From Acidimicrobiia bacterium (GTDB lineage: Bacteria > Acidobacteriota > Vicinamibacteria > Vicinamibacterales > UBA2999), in NCBI GenBank assembly GCA_016871375.1, contig VFYY01000021.1, positions 1 to 35,664 on the forward strand: a stretch of DNA of 35,664 bases, written 5' to 3'. A program made the translations under genes and the position numbers. Below the pieces are notes generated by a model that was given only the letters and a program-made list of their open reading frames with translations, did not search any database and was not told where the DNA came from. This document shows, piece by piece, positions 2,086 through 29,468 of the stretch; the first letter of the stretch is position 1, and each line of letters starts with the position of its first letter.

Positions 2086-2109
2086 GGGCGATGCATGCGT
2101 CGCCCCTAC
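2086..2109 (-). repeat. REP-like GTAG hairpin, family A (GTAGGGGCGACGCATGCATCGCCC)
   Basis: Near-perfect palindrome preceded by GTAG; TAG is the stop codon of the 2106..2909 gene. Confidence 0.75.
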
Positions 2110-2924: not shown

Positions 2925-3003
2925 TGCGATTTGCGATTTGCGATTTGTGATTTCAAATCACAAATCGCAAATCACAAATCACAAATCACAAATCGCAAAT
3001 CAC
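2925..3003. repeat. Heptanucleotide array (TGCGATT)n / (CRCAAAT)n arranged as an inverted pair
   Basis: 19-bp perfect arms 2935-2953 and 2955-2973 around a single C; then further CRCAAAT units. Confidence 0.9.
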
Positions 3004-3386
3004 TGATCGTTATTACCCGAAAAGACTTTCTTGCCGTCGGGCAGCGTGACGACGCGCGCGTTGGCGATGCTCGCGCCCGAGCGCGCCTGGATCCCCTCGA
3101 TGCTGACGCTGTCGCCGATCTTCACCGCGGTGCGCGTCCAGCCGTTGCGCACGAGCGCGCTGACGGCCAGCAGCTCGAGGTTCCAGTTCACCACCGACCC
3201 GTCCGGCTGCTTCACGTCGATGTACATCCGGGCGTGCGGGTTCGTCCACTCGATCTTGGTCACGGTGCCCGCGAGCGCGACCGTCTTGTTCGGGTCGTAC
3301 TCGCCGGTAATCGAGTGGTGCGCGACCGCAGGAACCGCCGCGCACAGGAACGCGAGTGCGGCGGCAAACGCCAGTTTCGTCTTCAT
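3000..3386 (-). CDS. DUF6152-like small secreted protein (copy 2)
   Basis: Start chosen at MKTKLAFAAALAFLCAAVPAVAHHSITGEYD (ATG 3386, preceded by GGAGGAGCG) rather than the longer ORF start at 3443. Confidence 0.85.
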   Translation of the reverse strand: MKTKLAFAAALAFLCAAVPAVAHHSITGEYDPNKTVALAGTVTKIEWTNPHARMYIDVKQPDGSVVNWNLELLAVSALVRNGWTRTAVKIGDSVSIEGIQARSGASIANARVVTLPDGKKVFSGNNDQ

Positions 3387-3401: not shown

Positions 3402-3425
3402 GGGCGACGCATGCGCCGCCCCTAC
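3402..3425 (-). repeat. REP-like GTAG hairpin, family A (GTAGGGGCGGCGCATGCGTCGCCC)
   Basis: Same sequence family as 2086 and 17948. Confidence 0.75.
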
Positions 3426-17076: not shown

Positions 17077-17958
17077 CTAAGGCGTGGGTCCCGCCATCTT
17101 CCGGAGCACGGCGCATACCGCGGCGGTGTCTTCGGCGCGGCGTCCCTGCCTGAGCGCCTCCGCGTAGAGCGGCTTGGTCGCGTTGAAGAGCGGCGTCGGG
17201 CACGCGGCCTGCCGCGCGTAGGCGGCAATCAGCGTCATGTCCTTCTGCCAGACGTCGAGCTTCATCATCGCCGGCGTGTATGTCCCCTTGACCATCAGGG
17301 GGCCGCGGATCTGCAGCATGCGCGAGCTGCCGCCGCCGTCGGCCACGACCTTCAGGACCATCGCCGGGTCCAGCCCCGACTTCATCGCCAGCACCATTGC
17401 CTCCGCCGCCGCGGCGGTGTGAATGGCCACCAGCAGGTTGGCGACGAACTTCACCTGCATGCCGGCGCCGAACGCGCCGACGTAGTAGTGCGCACGCGTC
17501 ACCGCCTGCAGCACCGGCACGACGCGCCGATGCGCGGCGCGGCTGCCGCTGACGACCACGATGATGTCCCTGTGCTTCGCCTGGATGCCGGTGCCGCTCA
17601 GCGGCGCATCGAGCATGGTCGTCCCGCGCGCGGCGAGCAGCGTGCGCGCCCGTTCCTTCACGTCGATGGGCAGCGTGCTGGTTTCGACGACGACCGCCGG
17701 CGGCGTATCGGCCGCCGCGAGCTCGCGCGCCACGTCGAGCAGCGCGCCCGACGACGGGAGCGAGGTGATGACGATGGAGGACCGGTTCCCGAGATCGCGG
17801 TTGCTGCGCGCGCTGATGCCGCCCATGCGCCGATGGCGGCGCCGTGCGGCCGCTGCGACGTCGAACCCGATGACCGTGTACTTCGCGCGGATCAGGTTCA
17901 GCGCCATCGCGGAGCCCATGATGCCGAGCCCCGCGATGCCGACAGCCGGGCGACGCAT
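17077..17958 (-). CDS. NAD(P)-dependent beta-hydroxyacid dehydrogenase (3-hydroxyisobutyrate dehydrogenase family)
   Basis: VGIAGLGIMGSAMALNLIRAKYTVIGFD Rossmann motif; DAPLSGTGIQAKHRDIIVVVSG; AGMQVKFVANLLVAIH. Confidence 0.88.
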   Translation of the reverse strand: MRRPAVGIAGLGIMGSAMALNLIRAKYTVIGFDVAAAARRRHRRMGGISARSNRDLGNRSSIVITSLPSSGALLDVARELAAADTPPAVVVETSTLPIDVKERARTLLAARGTTMLDAPLSGTGIQAKHRDIIVVVSGSRAAHRRVVPVLQAVTRAHYYVGAFGAGMQVKFVANLLVAIHTAAAAEAMVLAMKSGLDPAMVLKVVADGGGSSRMLQIRGPLMVKGTYTPAMMKLDVWQKDMTLIAAYARQAACPTPLFNATKPLYAEALRQGRRAEDTAAVCAVLRKMAGPTP

Positions 17959-17971
17959 GCGTCGCCCCTAC
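17948..17971 (-). repeat. REP-like GTAG hairpin, family A (GTAGGGGCGACGCATGCGTCGCCC)
   Basis: Perfect palindrome GGGCGACGCATGCGTCGCCC with a GTAG head, spanning a gene junction. Confidence 0.8.
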
Positions 17972-18789
17972 CGTGAATCAGCCGGCTTCGAGATGCCGCC
18001 GGGCAGGCCGTACTGATTGTTCTCGATGCAGATGTATTCGAGGATCTCGCTGCCCGGTTCAGCCAGCCTCGCCGTATAGGTGACCGTGAAGGGCTTCGTG
18101 AAGGCGCCCGGATCGTCGATCGTCACGTCGCGCCGCAGCGTGTTGAAATCGGTGCGCGTCCAGCGCTCCACCAGGTGCAGGCGATCGGTATGCGGGATGC
18201 CGCTGCCGTCGAGCCAGAACTTGTCGTGCAGGCCGACGGTGTCGATCACCAGCGTGTCGCCGTCCCACCGCCCCGTCGAGTGGCCGTACCAGGACGGGTC
18301 CGGATCCGGCGGGTGCTTCGCGTTCATGAAGATCTGGCGGTAGGTGTGCGCGTTCGCTTCCTGCAGCATGAAGATGTGCGTCGAGTTCACGGTCGGATGC
18401 TGCACGAAGCGCCACGCAAACCCGCCCGTGAGGCGCAGCGGGCCGCCCGGCATGCAGTAGTTGTACGGATCCTTGTCTTCCGTACGCGTGGCCATCAGCG
18501 TCTTCGCCCAGGGCTGCAGGATGGCGTCGAGCTCGCCCGGCTTGAGCAGGCGGGGAATCTCCACTTCGCCGCCGCCGCTCCAGACGCCGGACAGGTCGAT
18601 CGTCCCGTCCGCCAGCTTCGGCGCGGGCCGGTTCGCGCGCTCGGCCACCTTCGGCCCGTTGGCGCCGCCGAGCCGGAACACCGGGTTCTGATTCTGCCCT
18701 TCGACTTCGCTCAGGGCAGGCGCCGGTGGGAGGCTCGCGGCGACGAGCGCGATCGCAAGAGCGGCAATGGTCTTGGGCATGGCACTCAC
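17968..18789 (-). CDS. DUF6152-partner secreted protein (copy E)
   Basis: PKLADGTIDLSGVWSGGG; GHSTGRWDGDTLVIDTVGLHDKFWLDGSGIPHTDRLHLVERWTR; YICIENNQYG. ATG at 18780 may be the true start. Confidence 0.85.
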   Translation of the reverse strand: MSAMPKTIAALAIALVAASLPPAPALSEVEGQNQNPVFRLGGANGPKVAERANRPAPKLADGTIDLSGVWSGGGEVEIPRLLKPGELDAILQPWAKTLMATRTEDKDPYNYCMPGGPLRLTGGFAWRFVQHPTVNSTHIFMLQEANAHTYRQIFMNAKHPPDPDPSWYGHSTGRWDGDTLVIDTVGLHDKFWLDGSGIPHTDRLHLVERWTRTDFNTLRRDVTIDDPGAFTKPFTVTYTARLAEPGSEILEYICIENNQYGLPGGISKPADSR

Positions 18790-18838
18790 AAATCACAAAT
18801 CACAAATCGCAAATCACAAATCGCAAATCGCAAATCGC
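18786..18838. repeat. Heptanucleotide array (CRCAAAT)n, same family as 2925-3003
   Basis: tcacaaatcacaaatcacaaatcgcaaatcacaaatcgcaaatcgcaaatcgcc. Confidence 0.9.
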
Positions 18839-18847
18839 CAATGGTCC

Positions 18848-19232: not shown

Positions 19233-19256
19233 GCGGGCCGTAAAGACCCGCCCTAC
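19233..19256 (-). repeat. REP-like GTAG hairpin (GTAGGGCGGGTCTTTACGGCCCGC)
   Basis: GTAG head overlaps the TAG stop of the ABC ATPase gene. Confidence 0.65.
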
Positions 19257-20062
19257 GTACCCGGACGAGCGTAGTAATACCCCTCATTCTGCTCGATGGC
19301 AACCGGAGACTCGAACAGCGCGGTCAGGTGGGCGGCGGTCAGCACGTCGGCAGTCGCGCCGGCGGCCGCGATGCGGCCGTGGCGAAGCAGGACGACGCGC
19401 TGAATCTCCGGGACGATCTCTTCGATGTGGTGGGTAATCAGGATCAGCGTCGTGCCTTCCCGGGCGATCTGCCGGACCCGCTCCATGAACGCGTGGCGGG
19501 CGACCAGATCCAGGCCGGTGGTCGGCTCGTCGAGGATGAGCGCGCGCGGCTGCGTGACGAGCGCGCGGGCCAGCAGCACGCGCCGCGCTTCCCCGCTCGA
19601 CATCTCGTCGAGCCGGCGCCGCGTCAGGTGCGACACGCCCATCCGCTCCAGCGCGTCGGCCGCACGCGCGCGCATGCCGGCCGTCACGCGGCCGTAGCGA
19701 AGAATCCCCTGCGAGGCGAAGAACGCCGAGAGCACTGCCGCCTCCGCGGTGACGCGCCCCTCGTTGTTGCCGAAGACGAACCGCTGGTGCAGGTCGGCGG
19801 ACACGATGCCGAGCTGGGCGCGGAGCTCGAAGACGTCCCACCGCGTGTCGCCGAAGACGCGCACCGCCGGCGGCCCGTCGCCCTCGGCCAGCGGCCGGTC
19901 CTCGTGCGTGAGCAGGCGCACGAGCGCCGATTTCCCGGCGCCGTTGGGGCCGAGAATCGCGGTGTGCTCGCGTTCGTGAATGGTGAGGTTGAGCCGGTCG
20001 AGGACGGGACGGTCATCACGGATGACCGTCGCGTCCACGAGCTCGAGCACAGGGGCGCTCAA
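19253..20062 (-). CDS. ABC transporter ATP-binding protein, no adjacent permease
   Basis: Walker A GPNGAGKSAL, signature MSSGEARRVLLARAL, Walker B ALILDEPTTGLD, H-loop LITHH; TTG start immediately follows the MFS TGA stop. Confidence 0.88.
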   Translation of the reverse strand: MSAPVLELVDATVIRDDRPVLDRLNLTIHEREHTAILGPNGAGKSALVRLLTHEDRPLAEGDGPPAVRVFGDTRWDVFELRAQLGIVSADLHQRFVFGNNEGRVTAEAAVLSAFFASQGILRYGRVTAGMRARAADALERMGVSHLTRRRLDEMSSGEARRVLLARALVTQPRALILDEPTTGLDLVARHAFMERVRQIAREGTTLILITHHIEEIVPEIQRVVLLRHGRIAAAGATADVLTAAHLTALFESPVAIEQNEGYYYARPGT

Positions 20063-24598: not shown

Positions 24599-26590
24599 CT
24601 ACGGCAATCCGAATGCGAGCAGCACGTTGCCGGGGGTTCCGTTGCCCAGACCGACGTACCCGGACCCGACAAACAGCATCTCCGCCGCCACGGTGGGACC
24701 GGGCGCGCCCATCGAGCCGCCCCTCGCGGGCACCTGGTTGACGGTGTCGAAGTCGCGCCGGGTGTCGACGCTCCAGAGGACCTCGCCGGTGGCGGCGGCA
24801 TGCGCGCGGACGGTGCCGTCCTGCCCGGCCACGAAGACCGCGCCGGGCACCGCAGTCAAGGCCGCCGTGACGCCTCGCCGCCCCTCGACTTGGCTCGGGG
24901 CAGGCGGCGGCCGGAACCATTTCCGCTCGCCCGTCGCGGGATCGATCGCCGCCACGGCGCCGTTGTCGAGCGCGAAGTACGCCCGCTCGCCGTCCGCGGC
25001 GCCGCCAAAGAGGATCTCCGACTCGCCGATCTTCTCCACGAGCGTCGCCTTCCACAGCAGCGCGCCCTGGCGATCGGGATCGTGGGCGAACACCTGCCCG
25101 CTCTTGTTGCCCGCGAGCAATACCCGGCCTGCCCCGAGCGTAGTCGAGGGGCCTGCCCCGAGCGCAGTCGAGGGGCCTGCCCCGAGCGTAGTCGAGGGGC
25201 CTGCCCCGAGCGTAGTCGAGGGGCCTGCACCGAGCGTAGTCGAGGGGCCTGCCCCGAGCGTAGTCGAGGGGCCTGCCCCGAGCTCGGTCGAGGGGCTGGC
25301 CCCGAGCGCAGTCGAGGGGCTGGCGAGCGGCTGCAGGATGGGCGAGGTGCCGAAGTCGAAGTCCGGGCCGAGGTTCTTGGGGCAATTCTCCGTCCGGTCC
25401 TGGCCGCACGCCACCAGCCACGCGTCATTCTCGTGGTCCTGCACCGACCACAGGATGCGCCCGGTCTTCAGATCGAGCGCCATGACGGCGTCCGTGTTGC
25501 GGTGCGCGGGCTCCGTGTAGGCGTCGCCGGTCGCGACATAGATGGCGCCGCTGCGGACGTCGATCGTCGGGGCGTGCCAGATCGCCGCGCCGGCGCCCGT
25601 CCAGAGCTGCGTGCCGGCGGAGTTCCGCCGCGAGGGCACCGGCGGGTCCGGGATCGCGTAGGTCTTCCAGATCTGCCGTCCCGTGGCCGCGTCGAGCGCG
25701 AGGATGCTGCCGCGGAACGTGCAGCACGGATAGTTCAGGCTGCCGCCGGCCGCCTCCTCGCGCGAGGAGAGGGGCACGTACAGGCGCCCCTCGTGCAGCG
25801 TCGGCGAGCCGGTGACGACGGCGAGCGGATGCGCGTCGGCCTGCACCTTCCAGATCGGCGCGCCCGTCTCGGCGTTCACGGCATAGACGTTGGCGCGGAT
25901 GTCGCCGAAGTACGCCACGTAGCGCGCCGCGCCCGAACCGGGGCCGATCGACACGGCGTTGCGCACGCCGGTCTCCGCGAGGAACGACCAGTGCACGCAG
26001 CCGGTGCGCGCGTCGAGCGCGTAGACGTAGCCCGTATCCACGCCGACGAAGACGCGGCCGCCGGCCACCGTCGGCTGTCCGTACACCGACGAGGCGCCCG
26101 GGAAGCCGAACGCCCACGTGAGCGCGAGCCGCGGGATCTCGGCGGCCGTGATCCCGCCGTTCGGCTGATAGCGCGCGTTCGTGGGGTCGGGACTCCAGCC
26201 GTTCCACGCCGCCGCAGCCGTCGGCGCGTCCATGCGCGCGTTTGCGATGCACCGGTTGGGCATGCGGGCCGCCTCGCCCGCCTCGATCGGGCTCAGCTTC
26301 CGGCCGCTGACGAACTCCGCCATCGCCCGCTTCACATCGTCCGGCACGCCCTCGGCGTGGACGCGCATCGGGCCGGTGGTGATCGCGCGCAGGATGGCGT
26401 CCGCCGGCATCTGGCGGAGGGTGGCCAAGGTGGGCGCGCCCTCCACCTCGGGCCGGCGGCCGCCGGCGTCGCCGGTCTGGTGGCAGCCGGCGCAGCGCTG
26501 ATCGATCTGGCGGATCACGCGCGACGCCGTCTGCGCGTCCGCCACGCCGGAGATAGCAAGGAGTATCGCGAGGATCGTCAGGATGCGCAT
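24599..26590 (-). CDS. PQQ-binding-like beta-propeller protein with N-terminal c-type heme motif
   Basis: Start reassigned to MRILTILAILLAISGVADAQ (ATG 26590); CAGCH heme motif; PQQ/WD-like repeats (VYALDARTGCVHW, VYAVNAETGAPIW, ILALDAATGRQIW, VMALDLKTGRILW). Confidence 0.88.
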   Translation of the reverse strand: MRILTILAILLAISGVADAQTASRVIRQIDQRCAGCHQTGDAGGRRPEVEGAPTLATLRQMPADAILRAITTGPMRVHAEGVPDDVKRAMAEFVSGRKLSPIEAGEAARMPNRCIANARMDAPTAAAAWNGWSPDPTNARYQPNGGITAAEIPRLALTWAFGFPGASSVYGQPTVAGGRVFVGVDTGYVYALDARTGCVHWSFLAETGVRNAVSIGPGSGAARYVAYFGDIRANVYAVNAETGAPIWKVQADAHPLAVVTGSPTLHEGRLYVPLSSREEAAGGSLNYPCCTFRGSILALDAATGRQIWKTYAIPDPPVPSRRNSAGTQLWTGAGAAIWHAPTIDVRSGAIYVATGDAYTEPAHRNTDAVMALDLKTGRILWSVQDHENDAWLVACGQDRTENCPKNLGPDFDFGTSPILQPLASPSTALGASPSTELGAGPSTTLGAGPSTTLGAGPSTTLGAGPSTTLGAGPSTALGAGPSTTLGAGRVLLAGNKSGQVFAHDPDRQGALLWKATLVEKIGESEILFGGAADGERAYFALDNGAVAAIDPATGERKWFRPPPAPSQVEGRRGVTAALTAVPGAVFVAGQDGTVRAHAAATGEVLWSVDTRRDFDTVNQVPARGGSMGAPGPTVAAEMLFVGSGYVGLGNGTPGNVLLAFGLP
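25128..25319. repeat. 24-bp tandem repeat, 8 units, in frame within the PQQ-domain CDS
   Basis: Units cctgccccgagcgtagtcgagggg with few substitutions; encodes (GPSTTLGA)n on the coding strand. Confidence 0.95.
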
Positions 26591-26621
26591 GGCGAGAAGA
26601 TTACCTCCGGCGTCAAGACGG

Positions 26622-29468
26622 TCAGCGCTGGATGAGGCGCTCGACGGCGGCGAGATCGTTGCGGACATCGGCGTTGGACGGATCGAGCTGCACGGATCGC
26701 TGGAGGTGTGTCAGCGCCTCCGCGTAGACGCCGCGCGACGCGAGCGCGGCGCCGAGATGCCAGTGGGTGCGCGCGCTGTCGGGCTCCAGCTCGAGCGCGC
26801 GGCGGAAGCTGGCGATGGCCGCGTCGAGCGCGCCTCTCTCGGCCGCGGTCAGGCCGAGCATCACGTGGACGGCGGCGGTGTCGGGCACGACCGCGCCGAG
26901 ATAGTCGCTGTCGAGGATCGTGCGGCCTTCCCGCTCCCACAGGGCGCGCGTCTCCGCCACCTGCTGGCGCGAGGCGTCGTAGGCCTGCGTGAGCAGGTCG
27001 AGATACAACGGCAGCGCGGCCACGCGCGGGTCTGTCTGCCCGTCGACGACACAGCGCGGACACCACTCGGTGACGCCGGCCAGGTCCACGACCTCGCCGG
27101 GCACGCCGTAGCCGCTGCTCAACATCGAGCGGACGGTGTACTCCTGCAGCGGCCGGTCGTCACGCACCGGCTCTGCCGCCCGCGTGGCCTCCGCCAGCGT
27201 GCGTGCGGAGCCGAGGAAGCTGCCGACGATCTCGTGCGGCCGTGACAGCCCGATGCGGTCGAGATCGGCGCGGACGGCGGGCGCCTGCAGGAGCGCGGCC
27301 ACCAGCCGGGCCGGACCCACCTCGACACGCGGCGCGTTCGTCCCGAGCAGTACCAGGTCCGCCTCGGCGCCCGACAGCAGCACCGCCTGCGGGAACACGT
27401 CAAGAAACGACCGGATCATCGAGCGCGTCGTCGCCGCCGGCACCTGGTAGGTCGGCAGCCACTGGCTGAGGTAGCCGCCCGGCTTCAGGCGCGACCGCGC
27501 GAGGCCGTAGAACTCGCTCGAGTACAGGGCGCTCACGCCCGCGTAGGCAATCGGCGGCGGCTCGAGGACGACGAGGTCGTAGGCGCCGGGCGGCTGCATC
27601 TGCAGGTGCTGGCGGCCGTCGTTGATGTAGACGGCGACCTTGGGGTCCGACAGCACGGCGTGGTTGGCGTCCTCGAACTCGCCGGCATGCGCGAGGATGT
27701 CGCGCGACAGGTCGGCCAGCTCGACGCGGCGGACCGACGGGTGGAGCGTCGCCGCATGCGTGGTGTTGCCGACGCCGAAGCCGATGACGAGCACGGTCTG
27801 CGGACCGTCCATCGCCAGCAGGGGGATGTGTGCGAGCGCGCGCATGTAGCGCTGCGACAGCGGCAGCGTGGACGACATCGCGTGCCCGTTGGTGTAGAGC
27901 GTGCGTCCGCGGCCGTCACGCTCGGTGATCGCGATGAGCTCGGTCAGCCCGTCGCTCACGCGCAGGCGGCGTTCCCCTTCCGGTGCCGGCCCGAGCGCGC
28001 GCGTCACGACGTGATCCGCGGGCAGCCGCAGCCACAGCCCGAGCGCGACGAGCGCAACAGCGCCTGCGCCGACAGCGTACGTAGGGCGGGTTCCGCTCAG
28101 CGAAGCCGGCGGACCCGCCGCAAGATGCAGCGGCACGATTGCCAGCGCGGCGGCCGCCATCAGGATCGTTGCGCCCTGCTGGAGGCCGAAGACCGGCAGC
28201 AGCACGAACCCCGTGAGAAGGCTCCCGCACACCGCGCCGATCGTGTTCGCGAAATACAGCACGCCGGCTCGGCGGCCCACCGTCTGCTCCGCTCGCTGCA
28301 CGATGGCGTTGCCGAGCGGAAAGCTGAATCCCATGAACAGCGCGGGCAGCGCCACCTCGAGCAGCATCGGCCGCGCGTTGAACCACAGCTCGGCCCAGGC
28401 GCCGGCGCCCACGGGCGCGGTGTTGATCGGGACGACGTCGGCGCGCGCGAGGCCGAAGAGCGCGGCGGCGACGAAGGCCGCCTGCGTCGCCATGAACCAC
28501 TCCGCCGGACGTCCGATGCGCGAGACGAGGGCGCCGCCGATGAGCGCGCCGACGCCGATGCCGATCAGGATCAGCGCCAGCAGCAGCGAGAACACGGCGC
28601 GGAAGCCGCCGAGCAGGATGCTCATGTGGCGGAACCACAGGATTTCCATGCCGAGCGCCGCGAACCCTGCGAGTGCCAGCGCGAGAGCCGTGAGGATCAC
28701 TGGACGGAAACTGTCGGGCGGCTGGCCTGGCGCCGTCGTGTGGTCCGGCTGAAGCCGGACACTACGTACACGCTTGCCGTGTTGTGCCGTCGTCGCGCGA
28801 GCGATCGTCGCGCGAGCGATCGTAGGGGCCGACTTTAGTCGGCCCAGATAGAGGCGAGCGATCGTAGGGGCCGACTTTAGTCGGCCCAGATAGAGCGCGC
28901 CCACGCCGGCGACGACGTTGAGCCCGATGGCGACAAACTGCGTGCCCCGCAGCCCCAGCGCCGGCACCAGTGTGAAATCCGTCAGCAGCGCGCCCAGCGC
29001 CGCGCCGAACGTGTTCACCCCGTACAGGACCGCAATGCGCCAGCTGCCCGCCTGCAGGTCGCTGCGGACGAGATACCGGATCAACAAGGTGAGCGTGCCG
29101 CCCATCAGCAGCGTGATCGGCGCCAGCACGGCGACCGCGACCGCGGTGCGCAGGACGTACGACGCCGCCGACAACGCGTACCAGCCGTTCGGCTCCTGCA
29201 CGTAGGACGACACCGCCGCCGACACCTGGCCGAGACGCGGCAGCACCAGCGCGATGCCGAGGCCGAGCGCGGCGATGACGATCTCGACGAGCCCGTACGC
29301 GCGCAGCGGCCAGTCAGGGTTGTCCGCGTAGCGGCGGTCGGCCCACGCGCCAAGGACGTAGCTGCCGGCGCCGAGACCGAGCATGAAGACGGCGACGACG
29401 ATCGACGCGGAATAGATCGTGTTGCCGAAGACGTTGCCGAAGACGCGGACCCAGACGACCTGATACAT
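26622..29468 (-). CDS. Fused MFS-like membrane protein / spermidine synthase-like domain / C-terminal TPR-like region (true N-terminus may begin upstream of ATG 29468)
   Basis: MYQVVWVRVFGNVFGNTIYSASIVVAVFMLGLGAGSYVLGAWADRR; TVLVIGFGVGNTTHAATLHPSVRRVELADLSRDILAHAGEF...VYINDGRQHLQ; AAERGALDAAIASFRRALELEPDSARTHWHLGAALASRGVYAEALTHLQRSVQLDPSNADVRNDL. The same frame upstream reads LLYLLFLLSGLSGL with no usual start codon. Confidence 0.85.
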   Translation of the reverse strand: MYQVVWVRVFGNVFGNTIYSASIVVAVFMLGLGAGSYVLGAWADRRYADNPDWPLRAYGLVEIVIAALGLGIALVLPRLGQVSAAVSSYVQEPNGWYALSAASYVLRTAVAVAVLAPITLLMGGTLTLLIRYLVRSDLQAGSWRIAVLYGVNTFGAALGALLTDFTLVPALGLRGTQFVAIGLNVVAGVGALYLGRLKSAPTIARLYLGRLKSAPTIARATIARATTAQHGKRVRSVRLQPDHTTAPGQPPDSFRPVILTALALALAGFAALGMEILWFRHMSILLGGFRAVFSLLLALILIGIGVGALIGGALVSRIGRPAEWFMATQAAFVAAALFGLARADVVPINTAPVGAGAWAELWFNARPMLLEVALPALFMGFSFPLGNAIVQRAEQTVGRRAGVLYFANTIGAVCGSLLTGFVLLPVFGLQQGATILMAAAALAIVPLHLAAGPPASLSGTRPTYAVGAGAVALVALGLWLRLPADHVVTRALGPAPEGERRLRVSDGLTELIAITERDGRGRTLYTNGHAMSSTLPLSQRYMRALAHIPLLAMDGPQTVLVIGFGVGNTTHAATLHPSVRRVELADLSRDILAHAGEFEDANHAVLSDPKVAVYINDGRQHLQMQPPGAYDLVVLEPPPIAYAGVSALYSSEFYGLARSRLKPGGYLSQWLPTYQVPAATTRSMIRSFLDVFPQAVLLSGAEADLVLLGTNAPRVEVGPARLVAALLQAPAVRADLDRIGLSRPHEIVGSFLGSARTLAEATRAAEPVRDDRPLQEYTVRSMLSSGYGVPGEVVDLAGVTEWCPRCVVDGQTDPRVAALPLYLDLLTQAYDASRQQVAETRALWEREGRTILDSDYLGAVVPDTAAVHVMLGLTAAERGALDAAIASFRRALELEPDSARTHWHLGAALASRGVYAEALTHLQRSVQLDPSNADVRNDLAAVERLIQR
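28081..28119 (+). repeat. REP-like GTAG hairpin inside a CDS (GTAGGGCGGGTTCCGC...GCGGACCCGCC)
   Basis: GTAG plus long imperfect inverted repeat; encodes GPPASLSGTRPTY on the coding strand. Confidence 0.65.
28743..28765 (-). repeat. REP-like GTAG hairpin, family B, inside a CDS
   Basis: GTCCGGCTGAAGCCGGACACTAC; encodes VRLQPDHT on the coding strand. Confidence 0.75.
28812..28895. repeat. Perfect 42-bp tandem duplication (2 copies), each with a family C REP (GTAGGGGCCGACTTTAGTCGGCCC), inside a CDS
   Basis: 28812-28853 and 28854-28895 are identical (gcgagcgatcgtaggggccgactttagtcggcccagatagag). Confidence 0.9.

Follow-up and report, generated by a model that had tools for sequence, protein, structure and literature searches.

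A GTAG-class REP palindrome as the probable stop and start signal of two adjacent genes

Introduction

Can one copy of a dispersed palindromic repeat both end one gene and begin the next? The question is raised by two minus-strand genes in the window, by which we mean the whole stretch of 35,664 nucleotides that was analysed. The initial annotation had placed a single REP palindrome at 17948-17971, where it would form the stop codon of one gene, here called partner E, and the start codon of a beta-hydroxyacid dehydrogenase. Non-autonomous repeats like REPs are usually regarded as untranslated gene-end spacers. Judging from sequence, the GTAG-class REP at this junction very probably now carries the translational punctuation of both genes.

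Layout of the junction

On direct reading the coordinates prove exact, and the sequence together with the ORF calls bears out both halves of the claim. The minus strand reads ...GAT TCA CGG TAG GGG CGA CGC ATG CGT CGC CCG GCT GTC GGC ATC GCG GGG CTC GGC, with the following features:

17948..17971, minus strand: GTAG-tagged REP, made up of GTAG (17971-17968) and GGGCGACGCATGCGTCGCCC (17967-17948), with the family 3' G at 17947; exact match to the consensus
17968..17970, minus strand: TAG of the REP foot, stop codon of partner E according to the ORF call and ortholog ends
17965..17969, minus strand: AGGGG, Shine-Dalgarno (SD)-like, 6 nt before the ATG and overlapping the stop codon
17956..17958, minus strand: ATG at the palindrome centre, sole in-frame start ahead of the Rossmann motif
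17077..17958, minus strand: beta-hydroxyacid dehydrogenase ORF with NAD_binding_2 and NAD_binding_11; N-terminus MRRPAVGIAGLGIMG, partly REP-encoded
17968..18789, minus strand: partner E ORF, a secreted-type protein ending at TAG 17970-17968

The 20-nt REP core is a perfect palindrome. TAG and ATG share one frame and lie 9 nt apart (GGGCGACGC), with GGG CGA CGC as intervening codons. As had been annotated, no ATG, GTG or TTG stands between them; none occurs elsewhere before the GLGIMG motif either, and the ORF calls offer no alternative ahead of the Rossmann motif, leaving the REP ATG as the first available start of the dehydrogenase. The next in-frame ATG is codon 14, within GLGIMG itself.

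A dispersed repeat family

The 20-nt core occurs three times in the window (up to 3 mismatches), against 0.02 expected, and 166 times across many contigs of the 4.2-Mb genome (up to 2 mismatches), where a reversed control gives 0. Oriented GTAG 24-mers number 125 + 140 (up to 3 mismatches). The outcome that the initial annotation had named as speaking against it was one of conserved codons with no genomic repeat family behind them, and the 166 cores constitute such a family. Its logo, GTAGGGGCGACGCATGCGTCGCCCG, has GTAG and G as its two ends, and the junction copy agrees with it at every position. The aligned copies carry GTAG at the 5' and G[TC] at the 3' end, the symmetrical GTAG...CTAC form being a minority. 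Stem variants alter both arms jointly (GAGGCATGCCTC, GCGGCATGCCGC, GATGCATGCATC and others, with GAG/CTC, GCG/CGC, GAT/ATC and GGG/CCC around GCATGC), and GTAGGGGCG, GCATGC and CGCCC are kept across them, these being bases fixed by the search pattern. The element thus displays the traits of a GTAG-class REP, namely a palindrome of 20-40 bp, a terminal GTAG, dispersal at high copy number and compensatory stem changes. Of the 162 genomes from the order, 6 contain the exact 23-mer. The assembly analysed here is a draft, and the copy-by-copy analysis took in 126 REP copies, part of the full set; genes were called with our own simple codon-usage model, seeded with the window genes, mostly ones with family matches. 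The other two copies in the window are:

2086..2109, minus strand: second REP copy, its TAG being the stop codon of a partner E paralog (...GETKK-stop)
3402..3425, minus strand: third REP copy, between same-strand genes

Several other arrangements were seen among the copies. Short tandem REP arrays with periods of 28, 32 and 40 nt occur at L100, L105 and L121. Intragenic REPs (L025, L087, L099, L118, three in L128, L132 and others) are read almost only in benign frames, the VGATHASP type accounting for 13 of 14 sense copies and the RATHASPL type for most antisense ones; the TAG frame is impossible within a gene. At L048, L098, L122, L040, L096, L105 and L107 the intragenic REP falls at about residues 16-28 of secreted-looking proteins and apparently forms part of the signal-peptide end, e.g. 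AAGVAVGAMHASPAHAQ. Eight convergent (opposite-strand) genes stop flush with the 3' side of the REP, in a sharp peak at offset 25 from the REP start and with the layout stop codon, one base, palindrome. Symmetrical GTAG...CTAC copies at L243/L244 and L306, in the genome G095 discussed below, appear to end two convergent genes with TAG simultaneously.

The stop half

The TAG of the foot is the stop codon of a same-strand gene in 29 of the 116 GTAG-footed copies, as judged with our gene caller; for GTAGs outside REPs the figure is 30 of 938 (odds ratio 10, p = 2e-14). With the baseline limited to stop and intergenic GTAGs, the comparison is with 30 of 165 (odds ratio 2.4, p = 0.007). Gene ends peak at the exact TAG offset, where 21 copies of the first set fall; the runner-up among the offsets has 3. 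The C-termini of partner E orthologs (65-74% identity) deviate by no more than about 4 residues from the end seen here, and several have TAG as their stop. In EF-Tu the REP-borne TAG stands at the conserved C-terminal residue, and 12 of the 29 relatives compared end in GTAG without a REP. The GTAG foot therefore coincides with the natural stop position, and truncation of partner E by the REP was rejected on the same grounds.

Other REP-terminated genes, named by eye, include those of BipA/TypA, pyruvate dehydrogenase E1, polyphosphate kinase, threonine synthase and release factor 2. Partner E itself has no Pfam or NCBIfam family match; its family is heavily expanded in these genomes, with 59 matches scored in this one. 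Since stop codons provided by the TAG of the GTAG REP foot were already published in 2013 (Di Nocera et al., PMC3733652), the stop half of the junction is ordinary and known for GTAG REPs. Such REPs are common at gene ends, and they need not affect translation there.

The start half

The dehydrogenase (293 aa) looks intact: its codon use is coding-like, it matches Pfam NAD_binding_2 and NAD_binding_11 over their full length, and it reaches no NCBIfam equivalog cut-off. Orthologs with 51-63% identity are found in 8 relatives from the family, which allowed the comparison of orthologous loci that the initial annotation had proposed. The repeat is absent from the start region at all seven loci where this region is visible; in the remaining genome (G017) the contig begins inside the gene. 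Seven of the 8 genomes lack the repeat anywhere, and G026 carries the repeat elsewhere. The clear ortholog starts (G015, G011, G026) consist of M and two residues before [IV]G[VL][IV]GLGIMG. Set against MRRPAVGIAGLG here, an ortholog N-terminus such as MPTIGVIGLG is two residues shorter. The ortholog start position now falls within REP sequence, suggesting that the protein has become longer by about two residues (MRRPAV in place of MPTI).

The AGGGG stretch gives an SD-like pairing of -6.2 kcal/mol with the assumed anti-SD CACCUCCUU. On this scale called genes have a median of -5.0 and random positions of -2.1 kcal/mol, and the share that reaches -5.6 kcal/mol is 45% among called genes and 13.5% among random positions. 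Because no other start codon precedes GLGIMG, the dehydrogenase, if made intact, would have to start in the repeat, and we infer from the sequence that the REP ATG is its start codon. A search for named relatives of the locus returned only one distant Chitinophagaceae match.

Short arrays of other kinds also lie near gene starts. In the window, heptamer arrays of the CAAATCA type precede genes at 18775-18845 and 2940-3010. Different short arrays are found directly upstream of the dehydrogenase in relatives (L051, L052, L055), and in G022 an array of the AGCCCAAAGCC type seems to form the dehydrogenase N-terminus.

Recurrence of the arrangement

Further cases were sought as REP copies whose ATG is the best available start. 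At L113, in the same genome, the REP TAG ends a glyoxalase-family protein and the REP ATG begins MRRPSIVASLVAGVLCVSAPAYAQ, which is signal-peptide-like; an alternative GTG start there has no SD. Another case comes from G095, a genome of the order but from a different family. A single REP there supplies the stop of a DHH/DHHA1 (nrnA-like) gene and opens truB as MRRPYEISGLLLLDKPSG, with (M)RRPYEISGLLLL as the predicted N-terminus from the REP start. Beyond the REP ATG, truB offers no possible start before codon 25; the match to the TruB model sets in at residue 8. Among 8 compared genomes without a REP at this place, six have the truB ATG two residues before a G[VIL]L motif; the start is ambiguous in G071 and farther upstream in G080. 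The usual ATG position reads ATC in G095, and the six orthologs start six residues later than the REP ATG. This truB gene is the strongest evidence, as far as sequence comparison goes, that a REP start can take over a gene.

Clear double cases, in which one REP appears as both stop and start, number 2 among the 126 copies in this genome and 1 in G095. Because L113 and the nrnA-like/truB pair share the arrangement, the dehydrogenase junction is not unique; the combination of stop and start is real and recurrent but rare. Three further copies (L024, L032, L048) were rejected as starts, as the frame of the REP ATG is open but a strong native SD and ATG lie just downstream. A REP start is possible but ambiguous in L093, L270 and L047. 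In L093 (IMP dehydrogenase) the REP ATG (-5.6 kcal/mol) contends with a GTG that is aligned with the start of the G012 ortholog, though this GTG is now without an SD (+3.1). The literature searched, with subscription journals mostly outside its reach, yielded no description of REP-borne start codons.

RNA folding and a proposed translational coupling

The isolated REP hairpin folds with -16.5 kcal/mol (z -4.05) and has 8 bp; the AUG is part of its CAUG loop, and the stem takes up most of the SD. In a longer RNA context the folding of the junction is unexceptional (z -0.70). A special mRNA structure at the junction is therefore unsupported, and special folding of the whole junction was rejected as an explanation. 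With the AUG in the four-base loop and most of the SD paired, free initiation is expected to be weak.

We hypothesize, from the arrangement of these signals, that translation of the dehydrogenase is coupled to that of partner E. Ribosomes finishing partner E would stop at the REP TAG, and a terminating ribosome might open the hairpin stem and reinitiate 9 nt downstream at the ATG; the dehydrogenase would then be translated mainly through this coupling. Reinitiation is known to drop strongly with distance and to be almost abolished at about 20 nt (PMC10666635), so that the 9-nt gap, being well under this value as in coupled pairs, is permissive. The usual coupled arrangement consists of -4/-1 nt overlaps, and spacings of about +10 nt form only a small set in E. 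coli (PMC10666635).

On a more general level, and quite tentatively, the REP might act as a mobile punctuation module that holds TAG, the SD-like AGGGG and ATG within 15 nt. Such a module would repeatedly capture gene starts, after which the old start decays (as the ATC in truB of G095 would suggest), couple the gene to its upstream neighbour and add an MRRP- N-terminus. We consider this generalization doubtful at present.

Origin of the junction and alternative explanations

Relatives with enough flanking sequence mostly display the order MFS-ABC-dehydrogenase with no partner E between. In the window, DUF6152 and partner E are interposed before the dehydrogenase, and MFS and ABC are retained upstream. 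Together with the missing adjacency in relatives, this retention indicates that the partner E-dehydrogenase adjacency is young; it also makes the assembly look sound, which argues against mis-assembly. Two routes to the junction are conceivable: insertion of the REP at a gene end that was already there, or a rearrangement that accompanied the arrival of the DUF6152-partner E block in the conserved MFS-ABC-dehydrogenase cluster. The other edge of this block carries:

19233..19256, minus strand: a different GTAG-tagged palindrome, GTAGGGCGGGTCTTTACGGCCCGC, its TAG being the stop codon of the ABC-transporter gene 19253-20062

GTAG repeats are thus present at both edges of the block, and a second GTAGGGCGGGTCTTTACGGCCCGC copy lies in L282. 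Another repeat family (CTGAGCGAAGTCGA / GAGCGTAGTCGAGG) is found in frame in the partner E signal region (LSEVEG, window 18700-18716) and again at 25102-25341, where it forms a 24-nt in-frame minisatellite, (GPSTTLGA)n, in the ORF 24599-26710.

The stop codon need not have come with the repeat. If the REP was inserted directly after a GTAG stop that was already present, with the tetranucleotide as insertion site, the stop would be host-derived and only the start REP-derived. This reading refines the punctuation explanation rather than competing with it, and we take it seriously while placing it somewhat short of an even chance. It agrees with the 29 of 116 GTAG copies at stops, with a natural pool of gene-end GTAGs (30 of 165 non-REP stop or intergenic GTAGs being stops), with EF-Tu, which ends at the same residue with or without a REP and in 12 of 29 relatives in GTAG, and with the TAG ends of several partner E orthologs. 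However, 13 sense-oriented intragenic copies are far above the prediction from sense-coding GTAGs (8 of 938), which suggests that the element usually brings its own GTAG. Likewise compatible with the punctuation explanation, as it concerns origin, is a recombination scar between two REPs, one 3' of a partner E gene and one 5' of the dehydrogenase. The partner E adjacency missing in relatives, the partner E paralog in the window that also ends on a REP TAG and the different GTAG palindrome at the far end of the inserted block would all fit. Against this, no intermediate was found, the shared sequence amounts to only 24 bp and the far palindrome is a member of a different family. We regard this origin as rather unlikely.

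A more fundamental objection would give the REP no other role than that of an intercistronic mRNA element (a 3' stabiliser, a terminator or a translation brake, functions that have been suggested for REPs elsewhere), the ATG being incidental and the dehydrogenase poorly expressed or unexpressed. REPs here do gather at gene ends in both orientations, and most N-terminal REPs have been judged non-coding in the literature (PMC3733652). We nevertheless find this improbable, as the dehydrogenase reads intact by codon use, full-length domains and ortholog identity (51-63%) and is without an alternative start, and truB in G095, a near-universal housekeeping gene, is likewise without another start. 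An accidental likeness to a palindrome, by chance or through conserved codons, has next to no probability left: three window copies against 0.02 expected, 166 genome copies against 0 in the reversed control and the absence of the repeat from the ortholog loci already refute it. The preferred reading remains that the REP now very probably punctuates both genes.

Relation to known systems

The start half is the unusual and rarer part of the junction. If this REP does provide housekeeping genes with their start codon and ribosome-binding site, repeats can redefine protein beginnings and co-translated gene sets, and N-termini will be misplaced by gene callers that expect a native start close to such repeats. 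The predicted REP-derived N-termini (MRRP...) are distinctive.

The junction resembles translationally coupled pairs (PMC10666635) in its very short stop-to-start distance, which is compatible with termination-reinitiation. It differs from them in that the punctuation is made by a dispersed repeat, and coupling is hypothesized here. With REP/RAYT systems (TnpAREP, PMC8266576) it shares a GTAG foot followed by a perfect palindrome, as in the S. maltophilia REP, and Y1 transposase domains occur in the genome. Unlike in those systems, none of the four Y1_Tnp genes is flanked by the junction REP within the loci examined; one of the four is flanked by another GTAG hairpin family. Rickettsia palindromic elements (RPE, per PMC3733652) are likewise palindromic repeats read in frame within proteins, and include expressed proteins with an RPE at the N-terminus (as summarised in PMC3733652). 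The junction REP has no demonstrated sequence relation to RPEs and, unlike them, also bears a stop codon, an SD-like stretch and a start codon.

The GTAG-tagged REPs of PMC3733652 share with it a short GTAG-ended palindrome, high copy number, a gene-end bias, TAG stops and intra-ORF copies. N-terminal REPs of that set are mostly held to be non-coding, whereas at this junction and in truB of G095 the REP ATG is the only possible start. A further difference is that here stop and start both come from one element.
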